Assembly: GCF_000972865.1 (NCBI RefSeq)
Contig: NZ_CP011144.1
Span: 2,294,001 to 2,358,000 of the forward strand
DNA: 64,000 nucleotides
Reading direction: 5' to 3'
Source: Pseudoxanthomonas suwonensis
GTDB lineage: Bacteria; Pseudomonadota; Gammaproteobacteria; Xanthomonadales; Xanthomonadaceae
Below the pieces are notes generated by a model, which was not told where the DNA came from, made no database searches, and saw only the letters and a list, made by a program, of their open reading frames with translations. The translations under genes were made by a program, and so were the position numbers. Positions 16,574-33,269 of this stretch are shown in pieces (within the stretch, counting starts at the first letter, position 1; every line of letters begins with the position of its first letter).

Positions 16574-19500
16574 TCACAGGTCCAGGCCGAAGCCGACACC
16601 GCCGGATTTCTCGTCGCCGCTGAACGCCGCGCCCAGCGACAGCGAAGCGCGGCCGACGCGCTTGCCGTAGCCGACCGACAAGGCCTGCTCGCCGTTCTGA
16701 AAGCCGACGCCGACCGCGATTCGGCCGCGCGGACTGCCGCTGCCGGCGGCATTCATCGCCATGTTGAGCGAAGCCGAACTCATCGCGCCCTGGCGGTCGA
16801 TGCGGCGGTCCTGCTGCCCCAGGCGCCAATCGAGTTCGCCGCGGATCTGGCTGAGCTGTTCGTCCCAGGCGGCGAAGCGGCTGTCGGTGTAGGCATTGGC
16901 CGTGGTCAGCGTTTGCGAGGCGGTGCTGCTGGCATGGGTGCGCGCGGCCGACAGGGTCTGCTCGTCCTGTGCGCTGGCGAAAGCCCGGGCCGCCTCCAGC
17001 GTGCCCGCGTCGCCGGTCTCGACCAGGGCCTGGACCTGGGCCAGCGGCAGTCCGTCCGCGCCGGGATCGCCTTGTGGTCCCTGCGGTCCGGCCGGGCCCT
17101 GTGCGCCGGGAGCGCCGGGGGCACCATCCACGCCGGCAACACCCTGCGGTCCTTGCGGACCGGCGGGTCCCTGCACACCCGGCTCGCCCTGCGGCCCCTG
17201 CGGGCCGGCCGGTCCCTGCGGGCCAGCGGGCCCCTGCGCGCCGTCGTTGCCGGCGATGCCCGGTTCGCCCTGCGGGCCGGCCGGACCCTGTGCGCCCGGC
17301 GTGCCTTGCGGTCCCTGCGGCCCCGTCGCCCCCGTTTCGCCCTTCAGCGACGCGAGCCATTCGCTCTGCGTGCCGGCAAAGCCGTTGTTCACCGCCACCT
17401 CGTAGGCGCTGGCGCCCGCCGGGCCCTGCGGCCCGGTGCCACCGCCGCCGCCTGCGGCCAGTGCGGTCAGTTGCGCGTCCACCGCGTCGAAGGCCGCGCC
17501 GACGTTGTTGTAGCTGTTGCCCTGGATGCTGAAGCTGGGCGCGGTGAACACGCCGCCGGCATAGCCGGCGCCTCCGCCCATCCAGGTGGCGAAGCCGGCG
17601 CCGAGCACGTCCATCGAGGCGGTGAGCTGACGCAGGTTGACCGCGTCCTTCCCGTTCTGCGCGTCCTCCACGTCGGTGATGCGGCGATCGCCCACCGCCA
17701 CCGTGTCGTCCTCGTCGGCGACCGAATTGGGGCCGATGGCTACCGAGTTGCTGCCGGTGGCCAGTGCGTTGTCGGAGCCGTCGTTGGCGCCGTCGGCGAC
17801 GAAGTAGGGGTTGCTGGCGCCGGCCGTCACCCCGGCGATGGCGCTGTTGAGCTGGCCCAGGTTGACCGCGTCGGTGGCCTGGGTGCCGGCGGCGACGTTG
17901 ACGATCTGGCGCTCGTTGCCGGCGCTGCCTACCGATACCGTGTAGGCGCGGTCGGCGAGGGCGCCGTAGCCCAGTGCGGTGGCGCCGACCGCGGTCGCCC
18001 GGCTGCCCACGCCGAACGCGCTGCTGTAGTCACCGGCGGCCACCACCGCATTGCCCACCGCCACCGAGCCGGCGCCGAGCGCCTGCGAGGTCTCGTCGTC
18101 CTCACGCATGCCGTTGCCGTTGCGATCGAACCACCCGCCCACGGCGAGCGCGCCGGTCGCCGCGGAGCCCGTATGGGCGTAGAAGCCGATGGCGCTGCTC
18201 GAGGCGCCGTCTGCGGTGTTGAGGTAGCCGAACGCGCTGCTGCGGGTTCCGCTGGCGATGTTGCGCCAACCGAAGGCGAGGCTGTTGCCGCCGATGGCTT
18301 CGTTGTTGATGCCGATGGCCACCGTGGCGATGCCGCTGGCGGCGTTGGAGTAGCCGACTGCCGTGCTGCCGGTGTTGCCGGCCTGGTTGTGGAAACCAAC
18401 GGCGGTGCTGTTGCCGCCGCCGGCCACGTTCGAATGGCCGAACGCGCTGCCGTTGAGCCCGTTGGCCTGGTTCTCGAATCCGACCGCGCTGGTGAAGCTG
18501 GCGGTGGCGGCGTTGCCGTAGCCGAAGGCGCTGCCGCCGGAGCCGGCCGCGTTGTTGCGCTGGCCCACGGCGCTGCTGGAGTGCCCGCTGGCGACGCTGT
18601 CCACGCCGAAGACGGCGGCACGGATGCCGATGGCTTCCACGGCATTGCCCACCGCGACCGAGCCGATGCCCAGTGCACGGGTGGTCTCGTCGTGGTCGAT
18701 GTCGCCGCTGTTGTTGCGGTCGATCCAACCGCCCAACGCCAGCGCGCCGGTCGCATCGGCGCCGGTACGGGCGTAGAAGCCGAAGGCGCTGCTGGACACT
18801 CCGTCGGCGACGTTGCCGGTGCCGAACGCGGACGCCCGGCTGGCGTTGGCGCTGTTGTAGTGGCCGAACGCGCTGCTGTACAGCGCCGTGGCCCAGTTCT
18901 GGTGGCCGAACGCACTGCCGCCCTCGCCGCTGGCGGTGTTGTACCCGCCCAGCGCATGGCTGGCGAGCCCGCTGGCGGCGTTGTAGTGGCCGACGCTGCT
19001 GCTGTAGTCGCCGCTGGCAAGGCTGGACACGCCCGCGGCGATCGCGTCGGCGCCGGTCGCGCCATCGTTGCCGTAGTTGTCCGCCGCCGGATTGGCGGAA
19101 TTGACGCTGTAGAAGCGGGTCGGCGATCCGCCGCCACCGCCGGCACCCTCAATGGCCGCGTTGAGCTGGTCGAGGTTGACCGCGTCCGTGCCCTGGGTGC
19201 CGGCGGCGACGTTGACGATCTGGCGCTCGTGGCCGGCGCTGCCCACCGACACCGTGTAGGCGCGATCGGCCAGCGAGCCGAAGCCGATCGCAGTGCTGAA
19301 ATCGGCGAACGCGCTTGCGCCCACGCCCCAGGCGCTGGCGGAACGGCCGTCGGCCTGCGCGCCGATGCCCACCGCGACCGAATAGTCGCCGCCGGCCTGC
19401 GCGCCGTTGCCCAGCGCCACCGCGTTGAGGCCGTTGGCGCGGGTCGGTTCCAGCACGCCGTCCTCCTCGCCGTCGCCGTCCAGGTCGACCCACGTGCCGG

Positions 19501-21256
19501 TCAGGCCCCCGCCCACCGCCAGCGCGCCGCCGCGGTTGGCTTCCGCGCGCAGGCCCAGCGCGGTGCTGAGCGCTTCGTTGGCCCGGCTGCCCAGTCCCAT
19601 CGCCACCGCGCCCTCGTTGGCGTAGGTGCTCGCGCCCACGGCGACGCCGCCGGCGCTGACGTTGCCGGAGCCCATGCTGAGCGAGTCGCTGAGAACGTTG
19701 TAGTTGCCCTGGCCGATGGCGATGCTGGAACTGCCCCAGCCGGTGTCGTTGCCCAGGCCCAGGGCGATGTTCCCGTCGCCTTCGGTGGCGTTGTACGCGC
19801 CGAACACGACGCTGTCCTCGCCGCCGGCCTGGTTGTAGGCGCCCACGGCGATGCTGCCGTCGCCCCGGGCCAGCACGGCGCTGCCGATGGCGATCGAACG
19901 GGTGCCGGCGGCGGTCGCGCCGCCGCTGCTGGCGTCGCCCGTGCCGTCGCCGTCCAGGTCCAGGTCGTCGCCCGCGCCGTCGCCGCCGGCGAACGCCGAC
20001 ACCGCCAGGCTGCCCTGGCCCCAGGCGGTGGCCCGGGTGCCCAGCGCGGCGCTGTCGCTACCGTCCGCGCGGCTGCGGTAGCCGGCCGCGGTGGACTGGT
20101 TGCCGTGGGCGAGATTGCCGACGCCCAGCGCGCTGGCGGCATCGCCCTCGGCCCGGTTGACGTAGCCGAGGGCGGAACTGCCTTCCCCGCTTGCGAGGTT
20201 GCCGACGCCCGCGGCGATCGCGTTGAGGCCGGTGGCACCGTCGTTGTCGTGGTTGCCTGCGGCGGGATCGATGGAGTTGACGCTGTAGTAGTGCAGGTCG
20301 CCGCCGCCCGGGCCGCCACCGCCGACACCGGCGATCGCGGCATTGAGCTGGCCGACGTTGACCGCATCGGTATCCGTGGTGCCAGCGGCGACGTGGATCA
20401 CCTGCCTCGGCGCGCTGCTGGAACCGACGGCAACGGCATGGTCGCGGTCTGCAATGGCCTCGTGGCCGATCGCCGTGCTGCCGACGTTGAGGGCCTGGGA
20501 CCGGTAACCGAAGGCGCTGCTTGCGAACGCGCTGGCGGTGTTGTCGTAGCCCACGGCCGTCGCATGCTGACCATCGGCTTCGGCACCATAACCGACGGCC
20601 ACCGTGTCCGCTGCATTGGCGCGACTGCCGTGTCCCATCGCAATGCTGTTGCTGGCGTTCGCGGCGACCGCCGCATCGCGTCCGATCGCGATCGCGCTGC
20701 TGGCGTCTTCTCCCACCCGCGCGCCTGTCGTCGAACTCCAGCCCGAGCCGAGCGCCACCGAATGGGCCGCGCCTGCGGCGACTTGGCTGTACGTACCAAA
20801 CGCGACGCTGTAGACACTGCTGACGGTGTTGCGCATGCCGAACGCGCTGCTGGCCAGAGCGTTGGCGGCGTTCCCCATGCCGAAGGCACTGCTGTCTCTC
20901 GCATAGGCATTGTTGCCGTATCCGAACGCACTGCTGTACTCACCGCTGGCGACGTTGAGGAAACCGAAGGCGCTACTGATGGCACCCCTGGCGATGTTGG
21001 AGAAACCGAAGGCGCTGCTGCGAAGACCGCTGGCATTGTTCTCTACGCCATAGGCGCTCGCAATGCCGAAGCAAGTAGTGTTGTCCGTGCCGTGCTCGTT
21101 TCCCTGGTTGGTCCAGGGCGCCGACGTGTTCTGCGTGCCGTCGGGGTTCTGGCAAGGCTTGTCGGCGGCGAAGGCGGGCGCGGACAAGGCGGCCAACAGG
21201 GCCAGCGACAGCGGCGACGGCAGGGGCGAGTGGCGACGGGATGGGTGGTGGCGCAT
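16574..21256 (-). CDS. trimeric autotransporter adhesin (YadA-like) with collagen-like stalk and calcium-type loops
   Basis: A 1560-residue surface adhesin. A Sec signal peptide (cleavage near AFA-ADK) is followed by a very long head of YadA-like repeats of the type SSAFGxxNxAxG and SxAVG. The head is broken into modules by neck motifs ([19 protein letters not shown] and two closely similar [15 protein letters not shown] copies). Four Asp/Asn/Gly loops resembling calcium-binding EF/dockerin loops interrupt the head, at about nt 19921-19980, 19450-19494, 18684-18731 and 18088-18135. Near the C-terminus are the motif [19 protein letters not shown], about 32 Gly-X-Y triplets (nt about 17060-17350), a coiled coil, and a YadA-type anchor ending in FGLDL. 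The ATG at 21256 has GGAG upstream and starts the signal peptide. Confidence 0.93.
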
Positions 21257-21302: not shown

Positions 21303-21332
21303 GTATGCGAAACTCGGACGCACGACAGGACA
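21303..21332 (-). promoter_or_regulatory. putative ECF promoter of the adhesin gene
   Basis: Read on the minus strand: TGTCCTGT at 21332-21325, 15 bases, then CGCATAC at 21309-21303. The start codon of the adhesin is 46 bases further on. The same two elements with the same spacer precede three units of the secreted-protein cluster. Confidence 0.7.
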
Positions 21333-21368
21333 TGCCCGTGCACACGGCCGGGCCGGGGAGTCCGGGGG

Positions 21369-21932
21369 ATGAGCGGCGAAGGCGGTGCGGTCGAAGTGAC
21401 CCGGTTGCTGCAGCGCGCCCGTGCCGGCGAGGCCGGCGCGCTGGACGCCGCCTATGCGGCGGTCTACGAGGAACTCAAGCGCGCCGCCCGCCTGCAACTG
21501 CGCCGTGGCCGCGGCCCGCTGCAAACCACCGCCCTGGTCCACGAGGCCTACCTGAAGCTGGCCGGCGGCGCCGCGCTGGCGGCCAACGACCGCCACCACC
21601 TGCTGGCACTGTCGGCGCGGGCCATGCGCCAGGTGCTGGTCGACCAGGCCCGGCACGCGCAGGCGATCAAGCGCGGCAGCGGCCAGGACGCGCTGACCCT
21701 GACCGCCTCGGTCGGCTCCGGCGAGCAGGCGGTGGTGGAGGTGCTGGCCCTGGACGAACTGCTGGCCTCGCTGCAGAAGGTCGACGCGCGCGCCGCGCAG
21801 ATCGTCGAACTGCGCTACTTCGGCGGCTACGAGGAGGAGGAGATCGCCGACATGCTCGGCATCAGCTACCGCACCGTGCGCCGCGACTGGCGCAAGGCGC
21901 GCGCGTTCCTGCTGGCGGAGCTGGGCGTTTGA
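21369..21932 (+). CDS. ECF-like sigma factor with non-acidic region 2
   Basis: A 187-residue sigma-70 family protein of the ECF-like group. Region 2 contains [14 protein letters not shown] (residues 51-64), and region 4 contains the helix-turn-helix [21 protein letters not shown]. In canonical ECF factors the corresponding part of region 2 is acidic (Asp-Ala-Glu-Asp type) and contacts the core polymerase; here it reads Gln-Thr-Thr-Ala (52-55). Sigma factors with this change are known to be activated by phosphorylation of a Thr by a linked Ser/Thr kinase, for example in Vibrio and Xanthomonas. A kinase gene starts 2 bases after this stop. The ATG at 21369 follows GGGGG. The adhesin gene is divergent, 112 bases away. 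Confidence 0.9.
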
Positions 21933-21934
21933 GC

Positions 21935-24811
21935 ATGGACGAGACCGAGCGCAGGCGCCGCGCCCTGGCGATCTTCGAGGAAGCGGCGGACCTGGAAGGC
22001 GATGCGCGCGAACGCCGGCTCGGCGAGGCCTGCGCGGGCGATGCGAAGCTGCGGGCGCAGGTCGATGCCTTGCTGGCGGCCGACGCCAGCCCGGGCGAGC
22101 CGTTTTCGGGGAACGCGGCCGCCTGGAGCGATGCGTTGCAGGACGGTGTTGCCGGCGCAGGCGAAGACCCGATGCTGGGCCGCGATATCGGCGCGTGGCG
22201 CATCGTGGGCGTGGTCGGCCATGGCGGCATGGGCGCGGTGTACCGGGTCGAGCGCAACGACGGCGCCTACGCCCAGCAGGCGGCGCTGAAGCTGATCCGC
22301 AGCGGCGCCGATTCGATGGCCGCGCGCGAACGCTTCCTGCGCGAGCGCCAGACCCTGGCGCGGCTGCAGCATCCGCATGTCGCCACGCTGCTCGACGGCG
22401 GCTTCAGCGCCGCGGGCGATCCGTACTTCGTCATGGAATACGTGGACGGCATCCCCATCGACCGCTGGTGCGACGAACGCCGGCTCGACCTGCGCGAACG
22501 GGCCAAGCTGTTCCTGCAGGTGCTGGACGCGGTGCGCTACGCCCACCGCAACCTGGTGGTCCACCGCGACCTGAAGCCGTCCAACCTGCTGGTGGACGCC
22601 GATGGCCGGGTCAAGCTGCTGGACTTCGGCATCGCCAAGCAACTGGAGGCGGGCGACGCCACCCGCACCTCCGACCGCGCGCTGACCTTCGAGTACGCCT
22701 CGCCGGAACAGCTGCACGACGCGCCCATCACCACCGCCACCGACGTCTGGCAACTGGGCATCGTGCTGCACCGGCTGCTGTCCGGCGCGCATCCGTTCGG
22801 CCTGAGCCGCGACACGCCACTGGCCAGGCAACTGCAGCAACTGGAACGCGAGCCGGAGCCGTTGACCAAGGCGGCATCGCGCGCGACGGCCGAGCAGGCG
22901 GCGCAGCGCGGCGGACAAACACCTGCGGCCTTGGCCAAGGCCCTGCGCGGCAACCTGTCGGCGATCGTCGAAGCCTGCCTGCGGCGCGAGCCGGAGGCAC
23001 GCTACGCCTCGGCCGAAGCCATCGCCGCCGACCTGCGCGCGTGGCTGGACGACCGCCCGATCGCGGCCGTGCGCCTGGGCCGCGGCGAGCGCACGCGCTT
23101 GTGGCTCAGGCGCAACCGCGCGCTGGCGGTGTCGATGGCCGCGGTGGCGGTCGCCCTGCTGGCCGGCACCGGCGTGGCCCTGTGGCAGGCCCGCGAGGCG
23201 CGCGAGCAGGCGCGCCTCGCCGAGCGCGAGGGCGCGAACGCGCGCGCGGCGCTGGCGTTCCTGACCGACACGCTGGCCGCGGCCGGTCCCGAGCAGGCGA
23301 TGGCCACCGAGGTCAGCGTGCGCGAACTGCTCGACAAGGCGCGCGGGCAGCTGGACCGGCGCGGCGCGGTCGATCCGGCCATCCTGCAGCCGGTGCAGCG
23401 CATGCTCGGCCATCTGTACGGCAACCTCGGCGAACCGGAGATCGCGAACGACCTGTTCACGCGGGGATTGGCCGGGGTCGAGCCTGCCACGCGCGACGAA
23501 GCCCTCGCGCTCGCCAACGACCTCTCGGCCCAGGTCGATGCGCTGTCCTCGCTCGAGCGGGGGCAGGACGCGCTGGCGGCGGCGCGGCACGCGGTTGCGC
23601 TGCGCGAGCGGTTCGCGCCCGGCGATGCGCTGCAGCGGATGCGCGCGGCCGACGACCTTGCCACCGGCTATTACGCGGCGGACGACTACGACAGCGCGGC
23701 GACGCACTGGCAGCGCGCGGTCGAGGAGGCGTCGGTGCTGCCCGATGCGTCGGCCGGCGAAGTGATCGGCGTCCACCATAGTCTGGCCAACCTGCTGCGC
23801 GAGCAGGGCGATACCGCCGGCGCACTGAGGCTGACCGCGGAAGGGCTCGCGTCGGCCGACCGGCTGCAGGTGCCCGCCAGGTCGCCGCTGCGCGTCCCGT
23901 TGCTGCGGATCCGCGCCGATGCGCAGATCGCGAACGGCGACATCGCGGCGGCGGAGAAGACCGCGCGCGAGGGAATCGCACTGCAGTCGGCGGTCGTCGG
24001 TGGCGGTGGCGCGGAGATGGGGGCCTTGTACAACTCGCTTGGCCTGGTCCTTTTCGAGCAGGGCCGCTTCCGCGACGCGGCCGACGCGTTCGCCCGGGGC
24101 GGCGAGCTGCTCGCCGCCTCGGGCCAGGCGCCGATGAAGAGCGCGGCGACGATCGCGAACGTGGCCGGCGCGTGGGAGAGCGCGGGCGACTATGCGCGGG
24201 CGCGCGAGTTCTACGACCGTGCCGTCGCCCTGCTCGACCGCGCCGACGTGCCTGCGGAGAACATGGTCAGGCGCAGCCTGCTGCGCAACTACGCGCGGGT
24301 GTTGTTCTTCACCGGCCATGGCGACGACGCGCACGCGCTGCTCGAGCGGCTGCTGCAGCAAGCGCGCGCGCTGGACGGCGAGGATTCCCTGGAAACGGCC
24401 TGGGTCGTCTGGCAGCAACTGGTCCTGGCCCGACGCCAGCGCGATGCCGCGCGCGGACTCCCGCTGCTCGAGGACGCGCGCCGGCGCTGGGCCGCGCAGG
24501 TGCCGCCGGAGCACCTCGTGTTCGCGCATGCGCTGGTGACCGGCGCCGTGTTCGCCGAATCCGGCGGCGACTTCGCCTCGGCCGAGCGCGACCTGCGCGA
24601 GGCGATGCGGCGTTTCGAGGCGGCGGGCAACAAGCCGGTGGACCTGGCGACGACCCGTGCGACGCTGGCGCGCCTGCGGCTGGCGCAGGGCGACCGCGCC
24701 GAGGCGCGCCGCCTGCTCGACCAGGCATTGCCGGTGTTGCGCGAGGGCGTGCTGCCGACGCATGTCGGCCGCGCCGAGGCCGAGGCGCTGTCGACGCGGA
24801 TCGGACCATGA
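21935..24811 (+). CDS. transmembrane Ser/Thr protein kinase with periplasmic TPR-like region
   Basis: A 958-residue kinase. A helical N-terminal part of about 85 residues precedes a Hanks-type kinase domain with all key residues: GHGGMGAVY (about 95-103), Lys119 in ALKLI, HRDLKPSN (210-217) and DFG (Asp230-Gly232). It should therefore be active. One membrane helix lies at about 395-415 (VSMAAVAVALLAGTGVALW). The rest, about 540 residues, is built of TPR-like helical repeats and should face the periplasm as a sensor. It is translationally linked to the sigma factor gene, so phosphorylation of that sigma factor is the simplest inferred role. Confidence 0.93.
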   Translation: MDETERRRRALAIFEEAADLEGDARERRLGEACAGDAKLRAQVDALLAADASPGEPFSGNAAAWSDALQDGVAGAGEDPMLGRDIGAWRIVGVVGHGGMGAVYRVERNDGAYAQQAALKLIRSGADSMAARERFLRERQTLARLQHPHVATLLDGGFSAAGDPYFVMEYVDGIPIDRWCDERRLDLRERAKLFLQVLDAVRYAHRNLVVHRDLKPSNLLVDADGRVKLLDFGIAKQLEAGDATRTSDRALTFEYASPEQLHDAPITTATDVWQLGIVLHRLLSGAHPFGLSRDTPLARQLQQLEREPEPLTKAASRATAEQAAQRGGQTPAALAKALRGNLSAIVEACLRREPEARYASAEAIAADLRAWLDDRPIAAVRLGRGERTRLWLRRNRALAVSMAAVAVALLAGTGVALWQAREAREQARLAEREGANARAALAFLTDTLAAAGPEQAMATEVSVRELLDKARGQLDRRGAVDPAILQPVQRMLGHLYGNLGEPEIANDLFTRGLAGVEPATRDEALALANDLSAQVDALSSLERGQDALAAARHAVALRERFAPGDALQRMRAADDLATGYYAADDYDSAATHWQRAVEEASVLPDASAGEVIGVHHSLANLLREQGDTAGALRLTAEGLASADRLQVPARSPLRVPLLRIRADAQIANGDIAAAEKTAREGIALQSAVVGGGGAEMGALYNSLGLVLFEQGRFRDAADAFARGGELLAASGQAPMKSAATIANVAGAWESAGDYARAREFYDRAVALLDRADVPAENMVRRSLLRNYARVLFFTGHGDDAHALLERLLQQARALDGEDSLETAWVVWQQLVLARRQRDAARGLPLLEDARRRWAAQVPPEHLVFAHALVTGAVFAESGGDFASAERDLREAMRRFEAAGNKPVDLATTRATLARLRLAQGDRAEARRLLDQALPVLREGVLPTHVGRAEAEALSTRIGP

Positions 24812-24914
24812 CGCAGCGCGCCCGGTTCGCCACGCGTCGCCGGCCCGCGCCCGGAACGAACGGGATCGGATAGTCTCGCCCGCGTCGGCACGTCTGCCGA
24901 AGGGAGACCTCGTC

Positions 24915-25382
24915 ATGGCCTTGTCGCTGCCGCGTGCCGTCGCCGTCGCCACCGCCGTGGCCGGCACGCTCGATATCCTGGCCGCCTTCCTCCTGGCGTG
25001 GCTGGCAGGGATCGGGCCGGCCGCCGTGCTGCGCTTCGTCGCGAGCGGTCCGTTCCCGGCCGCGACCAAGGGCGGCGCGCACTGGGCCGTCGTGGGACTG
25101 GCCGTCCACTACGGGATCATGACGGCGATGGCGCTGGTGTTCCTGGCCGCCGCCCGCCGGCTCCCGGCGATCGCCGCCCGGCCATTGGCCTGGGGGATGA
25201 CCTATGGCTTGGGCCTGTGGGTGGTCATGTACTGGATCGTGCGGCCGCTGCGCTGGCCCGGCATGTGGCCACGCATCGGGCTGGCCACGACGGTGCCGGA
25301 ACTCGTCTGTCACATGGTGCTGGTGGGCCTGACCTTCGGCATCGTCGCCCGCGCGATGCTCGCCAGGCCCGGCCGCAGCTGA
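24915..25382 (+). CDS. small integral membrane protein, 155 residues
   Basis: Four hydrophobic segments are visible, near residues 8-35, 58-82, 90-110 and 128-148, with little soluble sequence. AGGGAGACC lies just upstream of the ATG at 24915. The layout resembles small YagU/DUF1440-like membrane proteins, but I cannot assign it firmly. It follows the kinase gene by 103 bases on the same strand and could be read through from it. No copy of the TGTCCTGT/CGCATAC promoter lies before it. Function unknown. Confidence 0.7.
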   Translation: MALSLPRAVAVATAVAGTLDILAAFLLAWLAGIGPAAVLRFVASGPFPAATKGGAHWAVVGLAVHYGIMTAMALVFLAAARRLPAIAARPLAWGMTYGLGLWVVMYWIVRPLRWPGMWPRIGLATTVPELVCHMVLVGLTFGIVARAMLARPGRS

Positions 25383-25435
25383 CTGCACGGGAGGCGTGGC
25401 GTCCCTGCCACGATCCGGCCCCGCGCCACCGCCGC

Positions 25436-27082
25436 TCACTGCAGCTTGAACGCACCGGTCAGGGTCACGCCGTAGATCGCGCCGTCGCGGCCGATGCGCC
25501 AGCTCGGGCCCTGCGCGGTACCGCCGCTCCTGTCTTCGATGTCCCAGCGGCCGTCGATGTCCAGGTTGTGGCCGGGCAGGCGCGTGGTCCAGAGCAGGGT
25601 GCCGGTGCGGCCGTCGAGTCCGTGCACGCGGAAGTCGTGCTTGCCGTCCCCGGCGGGCACGCGTTCGGACAGGTAGAACGCGCCGCCGGACGAGGCCAGC
25701 AACCGCGTTTCCGCCGGGACGGGGCGGCGCCAGGCCGGCTTGCCGTCGGCCAGCCGATGGCCCCACAGCTCGCGGTCGCCGCCGCTGCGGACCTCGACCA
25801 CCAGCACGTCGCCCGCGGCGATGCGGGTGGCGACCCGTCGGCCGCGGACGGGGGCCGTGGTCCACAGCGTGGCGCCGGTGCGCGGATCGAGCGCGCGCAG
25901 TCCCTCGCCATCGGGATCGCGGCCGATGCCGACCGTGCCCAGCAGTCCGTCGACGCGGATGATCACCTTGCCGCCGGCGACCATCGGCGTGCCGTCGTCG
26001 GAGCGGTAGGCCACCGTGTTGTTGGTGTTGCGCTCGACCATGGGCTGGTCGGTGTGCCGCCACAGCGTCTGGCCCGTGCGCAGGTCGATGGCGTGCAGCT
26101 GCCGGGTCGGGAAGCCGGGCTGGCCCAGGCTGCGCGCGGTCACGAACATCACCCCGCCGGACGCGGCCGGCGCACTGAACGTGGGCTTGTACTGCGGGTC
26201 GAGGTCGTTGCCCATGGCCAGGCCGAAACCGCGGTTCTGCCACAGTTCGCGGTCCAGCGCGGGCGACAGCGCGGTGATGTAGCTCACGCCCTCGGGCGTG
26301 GACTGGTTGACCACGGTGAACACCTCGCCCGGGTGGCGCATCGGCCCGCGCCTGGCGGGCGTGAGCGTGCGCACGATGCGCCCGGCCCGGACGTCGATGA
26401 CGTAGTGGTCGGTCGGGCCGCCGTCGTTGCGCGGATAGACCAGCAGCACTTCGCCCGACGGCAGTTCATGGAACCCCACGCTGCCCATCGAGCCGCGCCG
26501 CCCGCCCTCCCGGCAGATGCCGGCGATCCGCCAGACGGTCTTGCCGGTGCCCGCGTCCAGTGCGGAGATGCCTTCGTTGCCGTCGTTGTTGCAGCTGCCG
26601 GTCAGCACCAGGTTGCCGACCAGGAACGGCGACCACGCGCCCCACCAGCCCGGCTTGGTCTCCCATGCCTTCCGCGGCGCGGCGAGGATCGGCGGCGCGG
26701 GGAACTCGCGGCTGTTGCAGGTGGTGCCGTAGGTGCGGCTCATCGTGGACGCGTCGGCGCAGACCACGGCGGGCGCGGCGGCGCGCAGGCGGGCGATGGC
26801 GGCCTCGCGCGCGGCGGGCGAGTCGTCCGCGACGGGCACCGGCCCGACCGCGACCGGTACCCCGTCCTGCGGCGCCGTGGCCGGCTGGCCGTCCAGCCCC
26901 TGTTCGAGCGGCCGGGCGACGGTGTGCGCCGTCTTGTCCTCGGCCTTCTTCCTGATCTCCTGTTTCGTCCGCTCGACGGTGCGCTTGAACAGGCCGCCCA
27001 GGTCCTGCGCGGTGGCGGGGCCGGCCGGCGACAAAGCGACGGCGGCCAGCAGGAAAAGGAAAATCAGGAGATGCTTCTTCAT
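25436..27082 (-). CDS. secreted PQQ-like beta-propeller protein with LFKRT N-terminal motif
   Basis: A 548-residue exported protein. Signal peptide (cleavage near ATA-QDL), then LFKRTVERTKQEIRKKAED (31-49), a charged helix, then a low-complexity stretch and a beta-propeller. PQQ-type blades are visible as repeated GxxLWxT motifs (TGKTVWRI, TGQTLWRHT, TGATLWTT, TGTLLWTT). Cys pairs near residues 107-122 and in GSCNNDG may form disulfides. No PQQ-binding or catalytic residues can be named; many such proteins are scaffolds. The same LFKRT motif occurs in the NHL-propeller protein two genes upstream. It starts 54 bases after the upstream lipoprotein gene and has no promoter motif of its own, so it is probably its co-transcript. 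Confidence 0.8.
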   Translation of the reverse strand: MKKHLLIFLFLLAAVALSPAGPATAQDLGGLFKRTVERTKQEIRKKAEDKTAHTVARPLEQGLDGQPATAPQDGVPVAVGPVPVADDSPAAREAAIARLRAAAPAVVCADASTMSRTYGTTCNSREFPAPPILAAPRKAWETKPGWWGAWSPFLVGNLVLTGSCNNDGNEGISALDAGTGKTVWRIAGICREGGRRGSMGSVGFHELPSGEVLLVYPRNDGGPTDHYVIDVRAGRIVRTLTPARRGPMRHPGEVFTVVNQSTPEGVSYITALSPALDRELWQNRGFGLAMGNDLDPQYKPTFSAPAASGGVMFVTARSLGQPGFPTRQLHAIDLRTGQTLWRHTDQPMVERNTNNTVAYRSDDGTPMVAGGKVIIRVDGLLGTVGIGRDPDGEGLRALDPRTGATLWTTAPVRGRRVATRIAAGDVLVVEVRSGGDRELWGHRLADGKPAWRRPVPAETRLLASSGGAFYLSERVPAGDGKHDFRVHGLDGRTGTLLWTTRLPGHNLDIDGRWDIEDRSGGTAQGPSWRIGRDGAIYGVTLTGAFKLQ

Positions 27083-27136
27083 GATGCGTACCCATTCGCG
27101 TTCGATGTCCCGGCCCTGTCATCCCCGGCCGTACCA

Positions 27137-28528
27137 TCAGTCCCTGCAGCTGTCGATGGGCGTGAGCGTGCACATCTCGTCGCCGGTCGTCTGCGCCAAC
27201 CCGCCACTCGTGCGGGTGGCGCCTTCGGCCTGAACCTGCATCGTGCCCGGCTTGCCCTCGCCATCGGGAAAGGTGATGGCATAGGTGCCCGATCCGCCCC
27301 AATGCACGCCCGCGGACGATGGCGTGCGCACGATCCTCGTGGTGCCGGTCAGTCCGCCGCTGAGTTCATGGCCGAACAACGGGCCGTTCAGCACGAAGCT
27401 GGTGCGGATGTCGCACACGTCCTGTTCGATCGGATCGTGGCCGCCGCAGCTGAAATGGAAGGACCTCCCGCCGCAGGAAGGCACCCGGTTCCTGAGTTCC
27501 TGCAGGGTCGTCCGGTTCAGTCCATCGATGTCCGCCTGCGCCTTGTCGACCAGCGGCCCCAGGGCGACGCCCACGATCTTGACCGCACCCTTGCCGGCGC
27601 TGGAGATCAGGTTGCCCAGCGTCCCGGATGCCGAGCCCACCGCGTTGCCGACGATGTGCGCCTTGGCGCCGTCGATCAGGTCCAGGATGCGGTCCTTCTC
27701 GCCCGGGTTCTGCTCGTAGAATCTCCTGGTCAACGGATTGGTCGGGTTCTCCGCACAGGCGCGCAGCCTGTCGAGTTCGTCCAGCATCTTCGGGGTCTTG
27801 TCGGAAAGCCTGGCGAATGCCTCGGCGGCCTTCAACGCATCCAGCGCCTTGGTGATGCCGCCGCCCGCCTTTTCGCCGAAGGCCGTTCCCACGACGGCAT
27901 CGCGCGCCTCGTCCCCCGCCTGGCCGATGGCCCAGTTGTAGACGATCTCCATGAAGCCGCCGTCGTCGTTGACGGCATTGGGTCCGGCGTATTCGCGCAG
28001 TTGCTGGGCATGGGCCGAAGCGATGAAGAAGTCGATCAGGCCCATCGAGGGAGCGGCCCGCGCCGGTTCGGCGAGCGACGCAAGCGCTTCCGGCGGCAGG
28101 TCGGCCAGATCGACGTAGTAGCGGAACGTGCCGGATATCCGCTGCGGCGTGATCGAGGATGCAAGCACTTCGAACGGCTTGACCTCGTCCGCGCCGACGC
28201 GCCGGGCGCGGATGCCGGCGCGGTACACGTCGCCCCAGGGATAGGTCATGACCAGCTGCACCAGCCCGGGCTCCGGTTGGCTGGTCTGCGAGGTGGTCAG
28301 CGCCAGCAAACGCGCTTCGGCCGGCTCGATGCCGGCGGCGATGAGCCGTTCGACGACGGCCGGGTCCGGCGTGCCGTGCGGGTCCGGTGCCGGCGCGGGA
28401 CCAGTGGGCAAGTCCTGGGCCGCGGACATCGTGGCGGGCGCGTCCTGCGGGCCGCGCGAACATGCGGTCGCCAGCAGCAGGCCGGCGCAACACAGCAGGA
28501 CCGTGGCGACGGAGTTCCGGTACGACAT
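27137..28528 (-). CDS. lipoprotein of unknown function, 463 residues
   Basis: A lipobox is present (LLATACSRG, Cys at about 23). The mature protein has a Pro/Ala linker, then a region beginning DPAVVERLIAAGIEPAEARL, a helical middle part with a Gly/Ala-rich hydrophobic stretch (GNAVGSASGTLGNLISSAGK), and a Cys-containing beta-rich C-terminal part with GGSGTYAITF and the ending CTLTPIDSCRD. A similar ending (TLTPAEPCD) occurs in the lipoprotein at 30286-31959. I do not recognise the family. It is the first gene of a two-gene unit with the PQQ-propeller gene and has a putative ECF promoter upstream. Confidence 0.75.
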   Translation of the reverse strand: MSYRNSVATVLLCCAGLLLATACSRGPQDAPATMSAAQDLPTGPAPAPDPHGTPDPAVVERLIAAGIEPAEARLLALTTSQTSQPEPGLVQLVMTYPWGDVYRAGIRARRVGADEVKPFEVLASSITPQRISGTFRYYVDLADLPPEALASLAEPARAAPSMGLIDFFIASAHAQQLREYAGPNAVNDDGGFMEIVYNWAIGQAGDEARDAVVGTAFGEKAGGGITKALDALKAAEAFARLSDKTPKMLDELDRLRACAENPTNPLTRRFYEQNPGEKDRILDLIDGAKAHIVGNAVGSASGTLGNLISSAGKGAVKIVGVALGPLVDKAQADIDGLNRTTLQELRNRVPSCGGRSFHFSCGGHDPIEQDVCDIRTSFVLNGPLFGHELSGGLTGTTRIVRTPSSAGVHWGGSGTYAITFPDGEGKPGTMQVQAEGATRTSGGLAQTTGDEMCTLTPIDSCRD

Positions 28529-28558
28529 GGCGCGTCCTCGGTGATGGTCTTGTCTGCT

Positions 28559-28588
28559 GTATGCGTAGACACGCCGGGAGACAGGACA
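28559..28588 (-). promoter_or_regulatory. putative ECF promoter of the lipoprotein/PQQ-propeller unit
   Basis: On the minus strand TGTCCTGT at 28588-28581, 15 bases, CGCATAC at 28565-28559, then 30 bases to the ATG at 28528. Both elements and the spacer length equal those before the adhesin. Confidence 0.7.
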
Positions 28589-28733
28589 ACCGCTTGGCGC
28601 GCGTGGTCGGTCGGTAGTCGAGCAAGCGCAAGTCGCGGGCGATGCATTCAGGCCTTCCTCGCGCAGGCGGTCGGGTTCAGCCCGAGGCGCGGGACGGAAT
28701 CATGGCGCGATGTCCGGGTTGGACTGGGGCAGG

Positions 28734-30110
28734 TCAGTACGCCCAGGTGCGCACGCTGCCGTCGGTGTCGAAGCGCCGCACCTGGTGTTCGTCGAGCACG
28801 AACAGGGTGCGGTCGGGGCCGTAGCAGATGTTCTTCGAGGCGCGGAAGCTGGCGTGCGCGGCGGGGCCGTCGTAGGGCGCTTCGTCGTGGCCGGGGCGGT
28901 AATCGTCGAACGAGCCGGACCTGGCGAAGGACTGGCCGCTCAGGACCACCAGCCTTCCGCGGCTTTCGTCCAGCCGCATGATCTGGCGCCGCGCGTTGTC
29001 TTCGAGCAGGCGGGTGGCGACCACGATCCGGCCCTGGTCGTCCACGGTGAGCGCCCAGATCGTGTCGATGTTCTGGCCCACTGGGCTGCGCCCGGCCTTG
29101 AGCGTGTAGTAGACGCGGCGCGCCTGCCCGTCGGGGCGGATGCGCCAGAGGGTGATGCGCATGTCGTGCGTCGGATGCGCGGCGATCAGCCCGCCGCCGG
29201 CGACCAGCTCGCCGTGCACCGGGTCCCAGGCGATGTTGTCGACGTTGATGCGGTCTTCCGGCGCCTTTTCGCCGCAGGTGCCCTGGTCGTTGCCGACGAC
29301 GGTCGTGCGGCGGCCATCGGGCGCGATGCGCAGCAGTTCGCAGCGCTGCCTGTCGGACACCCAGACGTTGCCGGACGGGTCCAGCACCGGCATGCCGGGT
29401 CGGTCCATGACGCTGGCGACGGGCCGGGCGCGGCCGTCGGGCGTGACGCGCAGCACCGCCTCGCGCGAACTGACCAGCAGCGTACCGTCCGGTGCCAGGC
29501 TGAAATTCGGGCTCGGGAACACCGTGTGCCGGCTGCCGTCGGGGCGGGTGACCAGCGGAGTGATCGCGCCGTCGGGCGCGATCCGCCACCAGCCGGTGCC
29601 GGCGACGCCGCCTGCCACATCCAGCCCGCCCTCGCCGGCCAGCACCAGGCTGCCGTCGGCGGCGCATTGCAGCCCGTCCATGGTGCCGAAGAACGGCTTC
29701 TCCGGCGACAGGTACGGATTGACCGCGATCACCTGCTGCGGAGCGCCCTCGGCGGGGATGAACTTGCGTCCATGCCCAGGCTGCAGCCAGCGCAGCTGCG
29801 GGACGCCGCCGATGCGGGTGTCCGCGCGCGGCGCGTTCCAGGCGACGCCGACCGACTGCGCGGATGGCGTCGCCGTCGAAGCCGGTTTTTCGTTCGCCGC
29901 CTGTTGGGCGGGGCGCCTGGTCGCGTCCTCGGCGTTGCGCAGCGCTTCGTCCTTCAGCCGCTTGGCGGTGCGCTTGAACAGTGCATCGAGCTCTCCGGCA
30001 TCGGCCTGGCCGACGGGTGCGAGGCAGGCGGCAGCCGCCAGCAGCAGTGGCATGGCCAAGGCGTGGAACCGGCGGCGCGATCGGGCCTTGTCGGCGTGGA
30101 GGGTGGTCAT
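28734..30110 (-). CDS. secreted NHL/SMP-30-like beta-propeller protein with LFKRT N-terminal motif
   Basis: A 458-residue exported protein. A long signal peptide (hydrophobic core about 18-33, cleavage near ADA-GEL) is followed by LFKRTAKRLKDEALRNAED (44-62), which matches the PQQ-propeller protein in 11 of 19 positions. The rest is a propeller with NHL/SMP-30-type blades (FSLAPDGTLLVSSR, VLDPSGNVWVSDR, TVDDQGRIVVATR, CYGPDRTLFVLDE). It has 205 bases of non-coding DNA downstream and its own putative ECF promoter. No catalytic site can be assigned. Function unknown. Confidence 0.78.
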   Translation of the reverse strand: MTTLHADKARSRRRFHALAMPLLLAAAACLAPVGQADAGELDALFKRTAKRLKDEALRNAEDATRRPAQQAANEKPASTATPSAQSVGVAWNAPRADTRIGGVPQLRWLQPGHGRKFIPAEGAPQQVIAVNPYLSPEKPFFGTMDGLQCAADGSLVLAGEGGLDVAGGVAGTGWWRIAPDGAITPLVTRPDGSRHTVFPSPNFSLAPDGTLLVSSREAVLRVTPDGRARPVASVMDRPGMPVLDPSGNVWVSDRQRCELLRIAPDGRRTTVVGNDQGTCGEKAPEDRINVDNIAWDPVHGELVAGGGLIAAHPTHDMRITLWRIRPDGQARRVYYTLKAGRSPVGQNIDTIWALTVDDQGRIVVATRLLEDNARRQIMRLDESRGRLVVLSGQSFARSGSFDDYRPGHDEAPYDGPAAHASFRASKNICYGPDRTLFVLDEHQVRRFDTDGSVRTWAY

Positions 30111-30203
30111 GGCGTCGGTCTCGGAGGTGGCGCGGCGATCCCAGGGCTGGCGGCTTGCCCGATCGGCGGAGCGGGCCGCCCTGTCCGATGCCTGGTGTCC
30201 GGG

Positions 30204-30233
30204 ATATGCGTGGAATCGGGACGGGACAGGACA
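30204..30233 (-). promoter_or_regulatory. putative ECF promoter of the NHL-propeller gene
   Basis: On the minus strand TGTCCTGT at 30233-30226, 15 bases, CGCATAT at 30210-30204 (last base differs from the other three copies). The start codon is 93 bases away, so the leader would be longer than for the others. Confidence 0.65.
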
Positions 30234-30285
30234 GGCGAGTGCCGGCGACCTGCTTGCAGGCCGGCCCGGCTGTCCAGCAGCCGGG

Positions 30286-31959
30286 TCAATCGCAAGGCTC
30301 GGCCGGCGTCAGCGTGTAGTGTTCCGAATCGACCGCGCAGTGCTCGCCCCTGGCGTTGACGCAGCCCGGCCCGGTGCCGACCAGCGTGCCGCCGCTGTCA
30401 TCGGCGCTGACCGTGTAGGTGCCGTCGCCGTGCACGGCGAAGCCGCTCATGCGGCCCTCGTAGCGGTAGGAGCCGCCGGTGTCGCTGGAGGGCGTGAACG
30501 TCATCGTGACCCCGCTGCCGCTGATCGTGAACGCCTCCCCCAGGTCGCAGATCTTGCCGCTGCCGCGGAATTCGCCCGCCCCGCCCACTGCCGTGTACGC
30601 GCGCTTCTGTTTGGTGTCGAACTCGAGCGTGGCCCGGCCGACGCCGCGCTTGCTGCGCGCCTCGAAGGCGATGCTTGCGGACTCGTCCTTCTTCGCCGGC
30701 GCGGTGTAGCCGTATTGCGCGTCGGCGGGCACCTTCTCGCCCTCGCGGGCGAGGCTGTCGCCGCCGCTCAGCGCGGCGCGCACGCTGCCGCCGGTCTGCG
30801 CGCCGTCGGACTTCGCGCGCGGCCTGGCGGTGACCTGGAATCTGGTCGAGGGCCTGGCGCCCTTGCGCCTGGCCGGATCGCTGCCCACGTCCAGCCTGAC
30901 GCAGCGGCCGCTTTCCCAGGGCGCCTGCTTCATGCCGCGCAGCATGACCTCGGCCATCAATGTCTGGATCAGCTGCGCGCCCTGGACCAGCTTCTGGGTG
31001 CGTTCGACCTCGTCCATGCGGAAGATGCTGTAGCCGCTCTCGCCGCGGTTCTCGAAGGTCTCGCTGCCGCCGCGGGACCAGCCGGTCGTGAGCTGGACGT
31101 GCTGGCTCTCGTAGTTCTCGAAGCCGCCCATGTCGATGCGCATGCTCGACGACGAACCGTCCGGGCCGTCGATCAGGTTCGCGTCGTCGTCCAGCCAGCG
31201 CTCGTAGACGAAGTGCGAGCGCACGTAGCCGCCGGTGCCGGCCTTGCCCGACACCCTGACCGAGGAATCGATGTCCGATTCCACCTTCACCTTGCCCGAG
31301 GCGTCCGGGCAGGCATCCACCTTCATCTTGAGCTTGACCTTGCCGGTCAGGCCGTCGTCGACCTTGCCGTCGAACTCGAAGGCCTGGGTCAGGCTGCCGT
31401 CCTCGCCGACCCGCACCTCGAAGCTGCCGTCCTTGTCCTGCGTGCGCCCGAACCCGTTCTTGGCCGCTTCCGCCAGCTGCTCGTCGGACATCTCGCTGAC
31501 CACGCTGGAGATCATCCCGCCGGTCAGCAGGCCGCCGAAGCTGCCCAGTCCCAGGCCCAGGAAGCCGCTGCTCATGCCTTCGCCGGTGAACGCGGCCGGG
31601 ACCATCCTCGGCACCTGCGCCTGCGCGCCGCGAGCCTTGCGTTCGTAGTCCTCGGCCAGCGCCTGCAGGGCGGCGACCGTCTGCGCCTCGCCGCCGAGCG
31701 CCTGCTCGGCGCCGGCGGCGTGCAGCACCTTGTAGTGCAGCCAGTAGTCGAGCGGGCGCAGCGCCTGCAGCGACGGTTCCGAGCCTTCGGCCAGGAAACG
31801 TTCGACCTCGGCGCGGGTCGGGGTGAGGCCGGCCGGTTGCGTCGCCGCCTCCGAGCGCGCGGACGGCGCGTCGGCCGGCTTCGAACAGGCCGCCAGCGCC
31901 AGCGCGGAGGCGAGCAGCAGGAGACGGCGGGCGGCGACCAGGCTCATGACGGGATTCAC
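30286..31959 (-). CDS. lipoprotein of unknown function, 557 residues
   Basis: A lipobox is visible (LALAACSKP, Cys at about 25). The mature protein starts with a charged helical part (PTRAEVERFLAEGSEPSLQ), then a Gly-rich stretch (GFLGLGLGSFGGLLTGG), followed by a long beta-rich, acidic region with Ser/Gly-rich strands. Its C-terminal part (about the last 120 residues) looks like a small beta-barrel with GDGTYTVSADDSGGTLVG and ends in TLTPAEPCD, like the lipoprotein at 27137-28528. Not recognised. Its ATG overlaps the stop of the upstream gene by 4 bases, so the two are translationally coupled. Confidence 0.75.
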   Translation of the reverse strand: MNPVMSLVAARRLLLLASALALAACSKPADAPSARSEAATQPAGLTPTRAEVERFLAEGSEPSLQALRPLDYWLHYKVLHAAGAEQALGGEAQTVAALQALAEDYERKARGAQAQVPRMVPAAFTGEGMSSGFLGLGLGSFGGLLTGGMISSVVSEMSDEQLAEAAKNGFGRTQDKDGSFEVRVGEDGSLTQAFEFDGKVDDGLTGKVKLKMKVDACPDASGKVKVESDIDSSVRVSGKAGTGGYVRSHFVYERWLDDDANLIDGPDGSSSSMRIDMGGFENYESQHVQLTTGWSRGGSETFENRGESGYSIFRMDEVERTQKLVQGAQLIQTLMAEVMLRGMKQAPWESGRCVRLDVGSDPARRKGARPSTRFQVTARPRAKSDGAQTGGSVRAALSGGDSLAREGEKVPADAQYGYTAPAKKDESASIAFEARSKRGVGRATLEFDTKQKRAYTAVGGAGEFRGSGKICDLGEAFTISGSGVTMTFTPSSDTGGSYRYEGRMSGFAVHGDGTYTVSADDSGGTLVGTGPGCVNARGEHCAVDSEHYTLTPAEPCD

Positions 31960-33212
31960 AGGTTGCGCAGCAGGCCCTTAAGCAGCTTCTTGCCGGTGCC
32001 CTCCTCAGGCTTCTGCTGCGGTTGCGGCCTGGCCTGCGACGGATCGCCCGCATCCATGCCGTCGATCCCGCCCAGGTCCATGCCCAGCAGCGCGCCGGCG
32101 GTGGACTTGGTGCGCACGCGCACGTTCCACTCCGGGTTCCACGGCAGCTTCGGGTCGGCCGGCTTCGGCGGCCAGGCGATGTTCGTCTCCGGACCGTAGG
32201 CGATCATGCTCAGCAGCGGGGCCGAGGCGTCGCCGCCGGGGTTGGCGAAGATGCCCTTCGGGACCGCGCAGGAGGTGGCGGACGGCGGCAGCAGCACCTT
32301 CTCCTTGAGCCAGCGGTCGACCTGGCCGCCGGTGAGGAAGTCAATCACGCCCTGGCCGGCGTCGGGCACCTCGGCGCTGCTCCAGAGCACGATGGTCTTG
32401 TCCTGCAGGCTGAGCGCGTGCAGGAAGTAGGCCTGGGCGCGGTCCACCGGCTGCCAGGCCAGGGTCACGCCGCTGGCGGGCTCGCCGGATTGGGTCAGGG
32501 CGATCTTCGGCATGAAGTCGGCCGACGGCTGCAGCTCGAACTGCAGCGACTCGGGCACGCCGGGGCCGGTGATGCGGTGCGCGCCGGCCAGCGAGGCGTT
32601 GGCCGGGGCCCGCTTGGGCGCCTTCGGGTTGGGCCACAGCACGTAGGACGGATCGGGGCGAATGCCGCGCTCGGGCGCGTAGCGGCCCTGCATCGGATCG
32701 CCGCTGACCTCAAACCTGCCGTCCTTGGCGCGCATGCGCAGTTCGCGCGGCTGGCCGGCGCGCACCTCGCCGCCGCAGCCCCAGTAAAGCTTGATATGGA
32801 TCTCGGCGTCGGGCATGTCGAGGGTGCCGCCCTGCTCGAGCGTGTGCACGACGGCCGGCGGCGGCAGCAGTGGCAGCGACGGTCCCAGGCCCAGCCCAGC
32901 CGGCACCTGCTGTTCGGCCGCCTGTCCCGGCGCGGGCCGGTTGAGCATGGCGACGTCGAAGAACTTGCCGGGCAGCGCCGGGCGCCGCGCGTCGGGATAG
33001 CCGAGCACTTCGCCCTTGCCGCCGCCCATCATCCGCGCGGCCATGCCGCCCAGGCCGCCGATCGCGCCCATGTCGGGCATGCCGGCCATGTGGTGGGTGG
33101 AGACGTCGATCCAGACCTGGGTCGGCGGGCCGGGCGGCGCGCTGCCGGCGGGCAGGGCGACCAGCAGGGCGGCGGCGAGGGCGAGCGGAAGGGTGCGGCG
33201 GCGGGTGTCCAT
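31956..33212 (-). CDS. secreted Met-rich protein of unknown function, 418 residues
   Basis: A Sec signal peptide (cleavage near GSA-PPG) is followed by a Met/Gly/His-rich segment (THHMAGMPDMGAIGGLGG, then MMGGGKG) that could bind metal, a Pro-rich linker, and a beta-rich region with a fibronectin-III-like strand pair (SGVTLAWQPVDRAQAYFLHA). The C-terminus is Pro/Gln-rich and ends in a basic amphipathic tail (GKKLLKGLLRNL). I do not recognise the family. It is the first gene of the unit with the 557-residue lipoprotein and has a putative ECF promoter close upstream. Confidence 0.75.
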   Translation of the reverse strand: MDTRRRTLPLALAAALLVALPAGSAPPGPPTQVWIDVSTHHMAGMPDMGAIGGLGGMAARMMGGGKGEVLGYPDARRPALPGKFFDVAMLNRPAPGQAAEQQVPAGLGLGPSLPLLPPPAVVHTLEQGGTLDMPDAEIHIKLYWGCGGEVRAGQPRELRMRAKDGRFEVSGDPMQGRYAPERGIRPDPSYVLWPNPKAPKRAPANASLAGAHRITGPGVPESLQFELQPSADFMPKIALTQSGEPASGVTLAWQPVDRAQAYFLHALSLQDKTIVLWSSAEVPDAGQGVIDFLTGGQVDRWLKEKVLLPPSATSCAVPKGIFANPGGDASAPLLSMIAYGPETNIAWPPKPADPKLPWNPEWNVRVRTKSTAGALLGMDLGGIDGMDAGDPSQARPQPQQKPEEGTGKKLLKGLLRNL

Positions 33213-33239
33213 GGCGGGAGCCTCGGGTGCGTGTCGGAG

Positions 33240-33269
33240 GTATGCGCGGAAAGTGGCGCCTACAGGACA
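33240..33269 (-). promoter_or_regulatory. putative ECF promoter of the Met-rich protein/lipoprotein unit
   Basis: On the minus strand TGTCCTGT at 33269-33262, 15 bases, CGCATAC at 33246-33240, then 27 bases to the ATG at 33212. It is the fourth copy of the motif in the window. Confidence 0.7.

Follow-up and report, generated by a model that had tools for sequence, protein, structure and literature searches.

Four identical two-box elements link an adhesin and exported-protein genes to a predicted kinase-dependent ECF43-type sigma factor in Pseudoxanthomonas suwonensis

What places a trimeric autotransporter adhesin and a run of exported proteins under one control in Pseudoxanthomonas suwonensis? 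In a 64,000-nucleotide (nt) stretch of its genome (NCBI RefSeq assembly GCF_000972865.1, contig NZ_CP011144.1, positions 2,294,001 to 2,358,000), here called the window, a two-box element of the form TGTCCTGT-N15-CGCATAY stands before the adhesin gene and before every unit of the run. A gene for a sigma factor of the extracytoplasmic function (ECF) group lies at 21369–21932. Very probably, TGTCCTGT and CGCATAY are the −35 and −10 elements of four promoters read by this sigma factor, an ECF43-type protein that would be inactive until its Thr54 is phosphorylated by the kinase encoded next to it, whereupon one surface programme would be turned on. The initial annotation of the window had named the same sigma factor as the reader of all four promoters. 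The placement of the boxes in the genome, the boxes before orthologous genes elsewhere, their tracking of the sigma gene and the covariation of the −35 box with the recognition helix all support that proposal at the level of sequence, and point to one kinase-linked ECF43 sigma factor as the most likely reader of the whole set.

ECF sigma factors read two-box promoters with a fixed spacer, and the usual −35 element of such promoters is an AAC-containing box, in place of which TGTCC is found here. The initial annotation had listed four elements on the minus strand, and all four are present without a mismatch: TGTCCTGT-N15-CGCATAC at 21303–21332, 46 nt upstream of the adhesin start; the same at 28559–28588, 30 nt upstream of a lipoprotein/PQQ-propeller gene pair; TGTCCTGT-N15-CGCATAT at 30204–30233, 93 nt upstream of an NHL-propeller gene; and TGTCCTGT-N15-CGCATAC at 33240–33269, 27 nt upstream of a Met-rich protein/lipoprotein gene pair. 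These distances agree with open reading frame (ORF) starts at 21256, 28528, 30110 and 33212, the ATG at 21256 being preferred for the adhesin over a longer GTG frame. One box precedes each unit of the exported-protein run and likewise the adhesin, as had been claimed, and a search of the window allowing three mismatches adds no further site. Across the genome, searched as one contig of 3,891,720 bases, the exact pattern occurs four times, each time at a window site no more than 12 kb from the sigma gene; the reversed control pattern does not occur. This is the non-random placement that the initial annotation had proposed to look for. No site in the genome differs from the pattern by one mismatch and four differ by two. 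Candidates for further regulon members in the same genome, sought with up to three mismatches, gave 57 matches against 52 for the control; as these counts are about equal, nothing apart from the four exact sites rises above background and no additional member can be claimed. The possibility that the four boxes arose by chance or through recent copying of DNA has nothing in its favour beyond their identity and is practically negligible, given that none is expected in the window (100 shuffles) against four observed, that the boxes recur at orthologous positions in other genera, and that the 15-nt spacers and flanks are not alike among the copies, which means that the boxes did not come from the copying of a single block.

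The sigma gene (21369–21932, plus strand) encodes a protein of 187 aa that matches TIGR02999 with 183.8 bits (cut-off 126.15) and PF07638 with 138.7 bits, and consists of sigma2 and sigma4 domains only. The initial annotation took it to be the only sigma gene in the window, which agrees with one of the 25 PF08281 matches in the genome falling there (2315753–2315911), PF08281 being the one sigma family searched in this way. Its sigma2.2 motif is QTTA (Q52–A55), the ECF43 form, and its recognition helix reads RTVRRDWRK (168–176). Two nt beyond its stop codon begins a gene that the initial annotation did not mention, for a Hanks-type Ser/Thr kinase of 958 aa with a C-terminal TPR domain (21935–24811, plus strand), by its position the cognate kinase. 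Kinase and TPR profiles both match this protein, the motifs GxGGMG, HRDLKPSN, DFG and SPE can be made out by eye, and a single hydrophobic stretch was judged by eye to be a membrane helix. In the 35 rows of window-type sigma factors Thr54 is invariant (35/35), QTTA is found in 18 and Glu or Asp at the first motif position in 16, and in 30 of the 35 loci a kinase gene adjoins the sigma gene. Domains, kinase neighbour and sigma2.2 motif are hallmarks that mark the window sigma factor as ECF43-type. A sequence search of the PDB with it found nothing at E 0.001, so that contact residues could not be placed on a solved complex.

Compared with classical RpoE-type ECF systems that work with an anti-sigma factor, the two-box, fixed-spacer promoter is the same, whereas a kinase gene rather than an anti-sigma gene lies beside the sigma gene here. 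As described in the available parts of three reports, ECF43 proteins are kinase-linked sigma factors that carry another sequence where the acidic DAED motif would be, the charge being restored by phosphorylation of a Thr (PMC13147305, PMC8999054, PMC8103513). EcfK-PknS of Xanthomonas citri, also ECF43, likewise pairs an ECF sigma factor carrying Thr in sigma2.2 with an adjacent transmembrane Hanks-type kinase; its output is a type VI secretion system, and the part of the report available to us describes no promoter box (PMC13147305). The locus studied here differs in its output, an adhesin and exported proteins, and in its motif, QTTA as against QATE in the accessible description of EcfK. EcfP-PknT of Vibrio parahaemolyticus, a further ECF43 pair, is similarly kinase-coupled, with STTA replacing the acidic DAED and the second Thr phosphorylated, as far as the accessible text goes (PMC8999054). 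It is described there as controlling polymyxin resistance, a regulon different from the present one. By analogy with EcfK and EcfP, the window sigma factor would be made in an inactive form, its sigma2.2 region having QTTA where acidic residues would otherwise make contact with core RNA polymerase. The membrane kinase beside it would sense a cue outside the cell through its TPR ectodomain and phosphorylate Thr54, and the activated sigma factor would direct RNA polymerase to all four putative promoters together. The adhesin and five exported proteins would then come on as a single surface programme, with a putative role at the cell surface or in biofilms.

The boxes are conserved before homologous genes in other genera. 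From a scan of named genomes the best 80 of 549 relatives were kept, giving 79 loci (L numbers), and 31 of these (L081–L111, 55–79% identity) were treated as encoding window-type sigma factors. Their hosts are Luteimonas, Pseudoxanthomonas, Thermomonas, Lysobacter, Rhodanobacter, Arenimonas, Dokdonella, Solimonas and unclassified bins, two of which (L081 and L082) have an identical adhesin box and could represent a single organism. When homologues of the six target genes in L081–L111, three genomes (G numbers) and the window were examined with the pattern TGTC(C/G)N3-N15-CGC(AT/TA/TG), 23 of 55 judged upstream regions held a box against 11 of 443 other ORFs, and 19 of 49 did so once the six regions of the window itself were set aside; boxes before orthologues had been anticipated by the initial annotation. 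The 15-nt spacer dominates, with other spacers from 10 to 20 found in 0–6 of the same 55 regions. This count retains the second genes of units as misses, omits 13 homologues of unknown start (ten lipoA, two lipoB, one PQQ) and misjudged the adhesin start of L081 and L082, both of which have a box beside the sigma gene. A box precedes the divergent adhesin gene in L081, L082, L087, L089, L090, L092, L102, L105, L106 and G212, and the gene for the Met-rich protein (Met gene) in L082, L083, L086, L088, L091, L096, L097 and L100. With the pattern TGNCC-N3-N15-CGC(A/T), 18 of 30 Met-gene upstream regions match, compared with 0–2 at other spacers. Raw matches over L081–L111, gene positions ignored, are noisier and number 32 for spacer 15, one for the reversed sequence, 18 for spacer 11 and 1–11 for the others between 8 and 22.

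The boxes also track the sigma gene. Within a family set of 247 genomes, 14 (the window's included) have the sigma gene, with a best match of at least 71% identity, the next being 64% (G103). A relaxed pattern derived from these genomes, TGTCCNNT-N15-CGCATAY, has matches in 11 of the 14 (10 of 13 with the window's own left out) and in 17 of the 233 genomes lacking the sigma gene (Fisher p 1.5e-9, calculated on genomes, with counts made by eye). In matches, this is 17 against none for the control where the sigma gene is present, and 18 against 11 for the reversed control where it is absent. The stricter exact motif of the initial annotation is found in 4 of 14 and 2 of 233 genomes, respectively; exact matches in G145 and G134 lie inside called ORFs and were taken as chance. 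The three genomes that have the sigma gene and no match to the relaxed pattern carry variants, TGTCCGGA in G008, TGAACGGA and TGACCGGT in G237, and TGGCCGGT-N15-CGCTACA upstream of the Met gene in G225.

A search of 16 selected genomes with TGTCC-N18-CGCATAY yielded 19 matches against three for the control, 13 of them within 12 kb of the sigma gene. Five of the remaining six precede genes for small exported proteins (signal peptides by eye), three of these standing in tandem in G037, and one lies inside a called ORF. At L077 (7592–9500), three tandem, related genes for small exported proteins each have TGTCCGCT-N15-CGCATAC, approximately 190 kb from the sigma gene. A further pattern, TGTCSGGT-N15-CGCAT, gave 67 matches in the 247 genomes, 13 (in six genomes) against one control match where the sigma gene is present and 54 against 40 in the other 233, by eye no clear enrichment outside the genomes with the sigma gene.

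The −35 box also covaries with the recognition helix of the sigma factor. When the upstream regions were anchored on the −10 element, that is on CGCATA before adhesin or Met starts chosen regardless of any −35 element, CGCATA was found 30–70 nt before the start in 21 of 35 adhesin or Met regions, a range that was set after the list had been seen and into which four more distant CGCATA do not fit. The octamer 15 nt upstream begins with TG(T/A)(C/A)C in all 21. In 17 of these it is TGTCC, all at loci with Arg168 except for one with Leu168 (L090), and in four it is TGACC or TGAAC, all at the Ser168 loci L098, L111 and G237. These three loci have TGACC or TGAAC in 6/6 boxes before adhesin or Met genes; in L098 and in L111 two separate promoters are changed alike, and in G237 the Met gene, which is unlinked and 0.54 Mb from the sigma gene, is preceded by TGACCGGT-N15-CGCTATC. 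Box and helix have changed in concert, and it is the upstream block that covaries with sigma region 4.2, which sets these data against the idea that the two boxes are the operator of an activator or repressor rather than −35 and −10 elements. A dimeric regulator would likewise fit a pair of conserved blocks at fixed spacing; by eye, the pair forms neither an inverted nor a direct repeat, and the spacing and leaders of 27–93 nt suit promoters, making an operator highly improbable.

A second helix position changes with the box in paralogous sigma factors. Four paralogues with Gln171 (L113, L116, L127 and the second sigma factor of L084) adjoin TGTCG boxes, with G at base 5. Genome-wide searches with TGTCGGGT-N15-CGCAT place 5/5 matches in Rhodanobacter sp. 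A1T4 and 3/3 in a Luteibacter bin less than 5 kb from the sigma gene, this search covering the G form only and the local lists allowing C as well. Adhesins are also found beside the Gln171 paralogues of L084, L116 and L127. In L127 and at the second sigma factor of L084 the TGTCG boxes precede the adjacent adhesin gene, and in L116 (5726, 5800) one box stands before a 1768-aa adhesin-like ORF whose signal peptide is of the ESPR type, and a second before an EAL-domain-like protein (by eye). It is possible, if somewhat doubtful as a whole, that a Lysobacterales branch of ECF43 reads TG(T/A)C(C/G)NNT-N15-CGC(A/T) through a helix code in which residue 168 corresponds to base 3 (Arg-T, Ser-A) and residue 171 base 5 (Arg-C, Gln-G), and that together with a nearby kinase it forms portable, mutually insulated modules that have repeatedly come to control trimeric autotransporter adhesins and exported or EAL-domain-like proteins. 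Separately, L113 (8819–13310) carries a Gln171 ECF43-like sigma factor with TGTCG boxes before EAL-domain-like ORFs.

A number of observations, set out in this and the following paragraph, weigh against control of the boxes by the kinase-linked local sigma factor or against the helix code. Box-like elements persist in relatives that lack the sigma gene. G010 and G215, of the same genus and without a sigma orthologue, have TGTCCTGT-N15-TGCATAC or -CGCCACC before a 76%-identical Met gene, and G155 and G113 have TGGCCGST-N15-CGCTCTA before theirs. The Met-rich family is present in 45 of the 247 family genomes, many without a window-type sigma factor, and target and sigma factor are therefore not inseparable. 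The box-like elements in these relatives may have been left behind when the sigma gene was lost, or may be read by a paralogous sigma factor. The same question arises for the window itself, where the boxes might be promoters read wholly or partly by another sigma factor, most likely the paralogue at G000:C1:2140095-2140640. Its helix, ERSVRRDWQK, resembles that of the window sigma factor, and its close kin occur in those sigma-less members of the genus that retain box-like elements before the Met gene. Such a reader is nonetheless improbable, since the boxes follow the local sigma gene, with the low match rate in genomes lacking it even though 205 of the 247 have a TIGR02999-like match, and since box changes accompany helix changes in the local sigma factor. 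L170 and L171, members of the genus without a sigma orthologue, have an intact TGTCCTGT with an altered −10 element 34–64 nt before the Met gene.

The link to the kinase and the helix code have exceptions of their own. In L081, L082, L094, L095 and L106, of which L106 lies at a contig end, no kinase gene adjoins the sigma gene; among these five, L082 (10001–12059) has the motif ETTA together with intact adhesin and Met boxes. Nor is a kinase directly beside the sigma factors of L113 and L116. The sigma gene is present with no clear box in L099, L103, L107 and L110. Of 16 spacer-15 matches in the 48 distant loci L112–L159, 13 come from L113 and L116, and the other 46 loci hold three. An ECF43-like sigma locus of G153, a genome of the same family, has no such boxes, with 13 loose spacer-15 matches compared with 10–12 at spacers 12, 14 and 18 and none of the TGTC type; the HRD-K-P-N kinase motif was not found there by pattern, and this locus may not be kinase-linked. 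With regard to the helix, the rows of L098, L111 and G237 form one clade (support 96/93), so that the change to Ser168 counts as one event that moved several promoters together. L090 retains TGTCC with Leu168, which means that Arg168 is not required and position 168 is not a strict determinant. L103, with Ser168 and Gln171, has no recognisable box, and in L109, with Gln171, the sole box-like match near the Met gene has C at base 5 and overlaps the predicted start. These two Gln171 loci without a TGTCG box, together with the 46 boxless distant loci, make a general helix code less likely.

The initial annotation regarded a regulon joining adhesion to secreted proteins as undescribed, and this is apparently so. 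Our search of the literature found no account of this regulon or of an ECF43 promoter box, and a published ECF43 motif may nevertheless exist. ECF43 is the best-known case of sigma factors activated by Ser/Thr kinases, and the literature searched, as far as it was accessible, names two outputs, type VI secretion and polymyxin resistance, and gives no target promoter. With its sharp, conserved box, such a local regulon offers a ready reporter for the phosphorylation switch and predicts targets in related genomes, unlinked ones included. The matched helix and −35 changes provide a natural set for testing how insulated sigma factors diverge. The regulon also ties surface adhesion to exported proteins, several of which belong to no Pfam family.

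The adhesin gene (16574–21256, minus strand) is divergent from the sigma gene and encodes a 1560-aa trimeric autotransporter adhesin with YadA head and stalk repeats (PF05658, 194.6 bits; PF05662, 117.3 bits) and collagen-like repeats. No Pfam match to a YadA membrane anchor was found at its C-terminus at E 0.01, and by eye the C-terminus resembles a short barrel. Between the two genes, an element like GAGTTTCGCAYA (window 21303–21320) is retained on the 5' side of the sigma gene at most of the 16 loci compared, including loci in which no adhesin homologue was found; it is absent from G242 and weak in G103 and G060. Read in the other direction as TRTGCGAAACTC, this element may be part of the promoter of the sigma gene itself.

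The exported-protein run is encoded on the minus strand, its export signals having been judged by eye. The Met-rich protein (31956–33212) has no Pfam family at E 0.01, and its gene overlaps by 4 nt that of a predicted lipoprotein (30286–31959). The NHL-type propeller protein (28734–30110) has an NHL match below the Pfam cut-off. A second predicted lipoprotein (27137–28528), with an N-terminal lipobox and no Pfam family at E 0.01, is followed after 54 nt by the gene for a PQQ/BamB-type beta-propeller protein with a signal peptide (25436–27082). When the structure of the Met-rich protein was predicted (pLDDT 76), its matches were weak and fibronectin-III-like (best E 4.7e-4, TM no higher than 0.25 among the top four); the predicted structure of the lipoprotein (pLDDT 75) had no convincing match (best E 2.8e-4, TM 0.09/0.16), and neither was used. 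A C-terminal stretch of approximately 115 aa seems to be common to the two lipoproteins: in L098 the first matches with its end within the homologue of the second. The two propeller proteins likewise seem to have an N-terminal segment in common (LFKRT...K.E...AED): in L087 the beginning of the PQQ protein matches within the NHL homologue.

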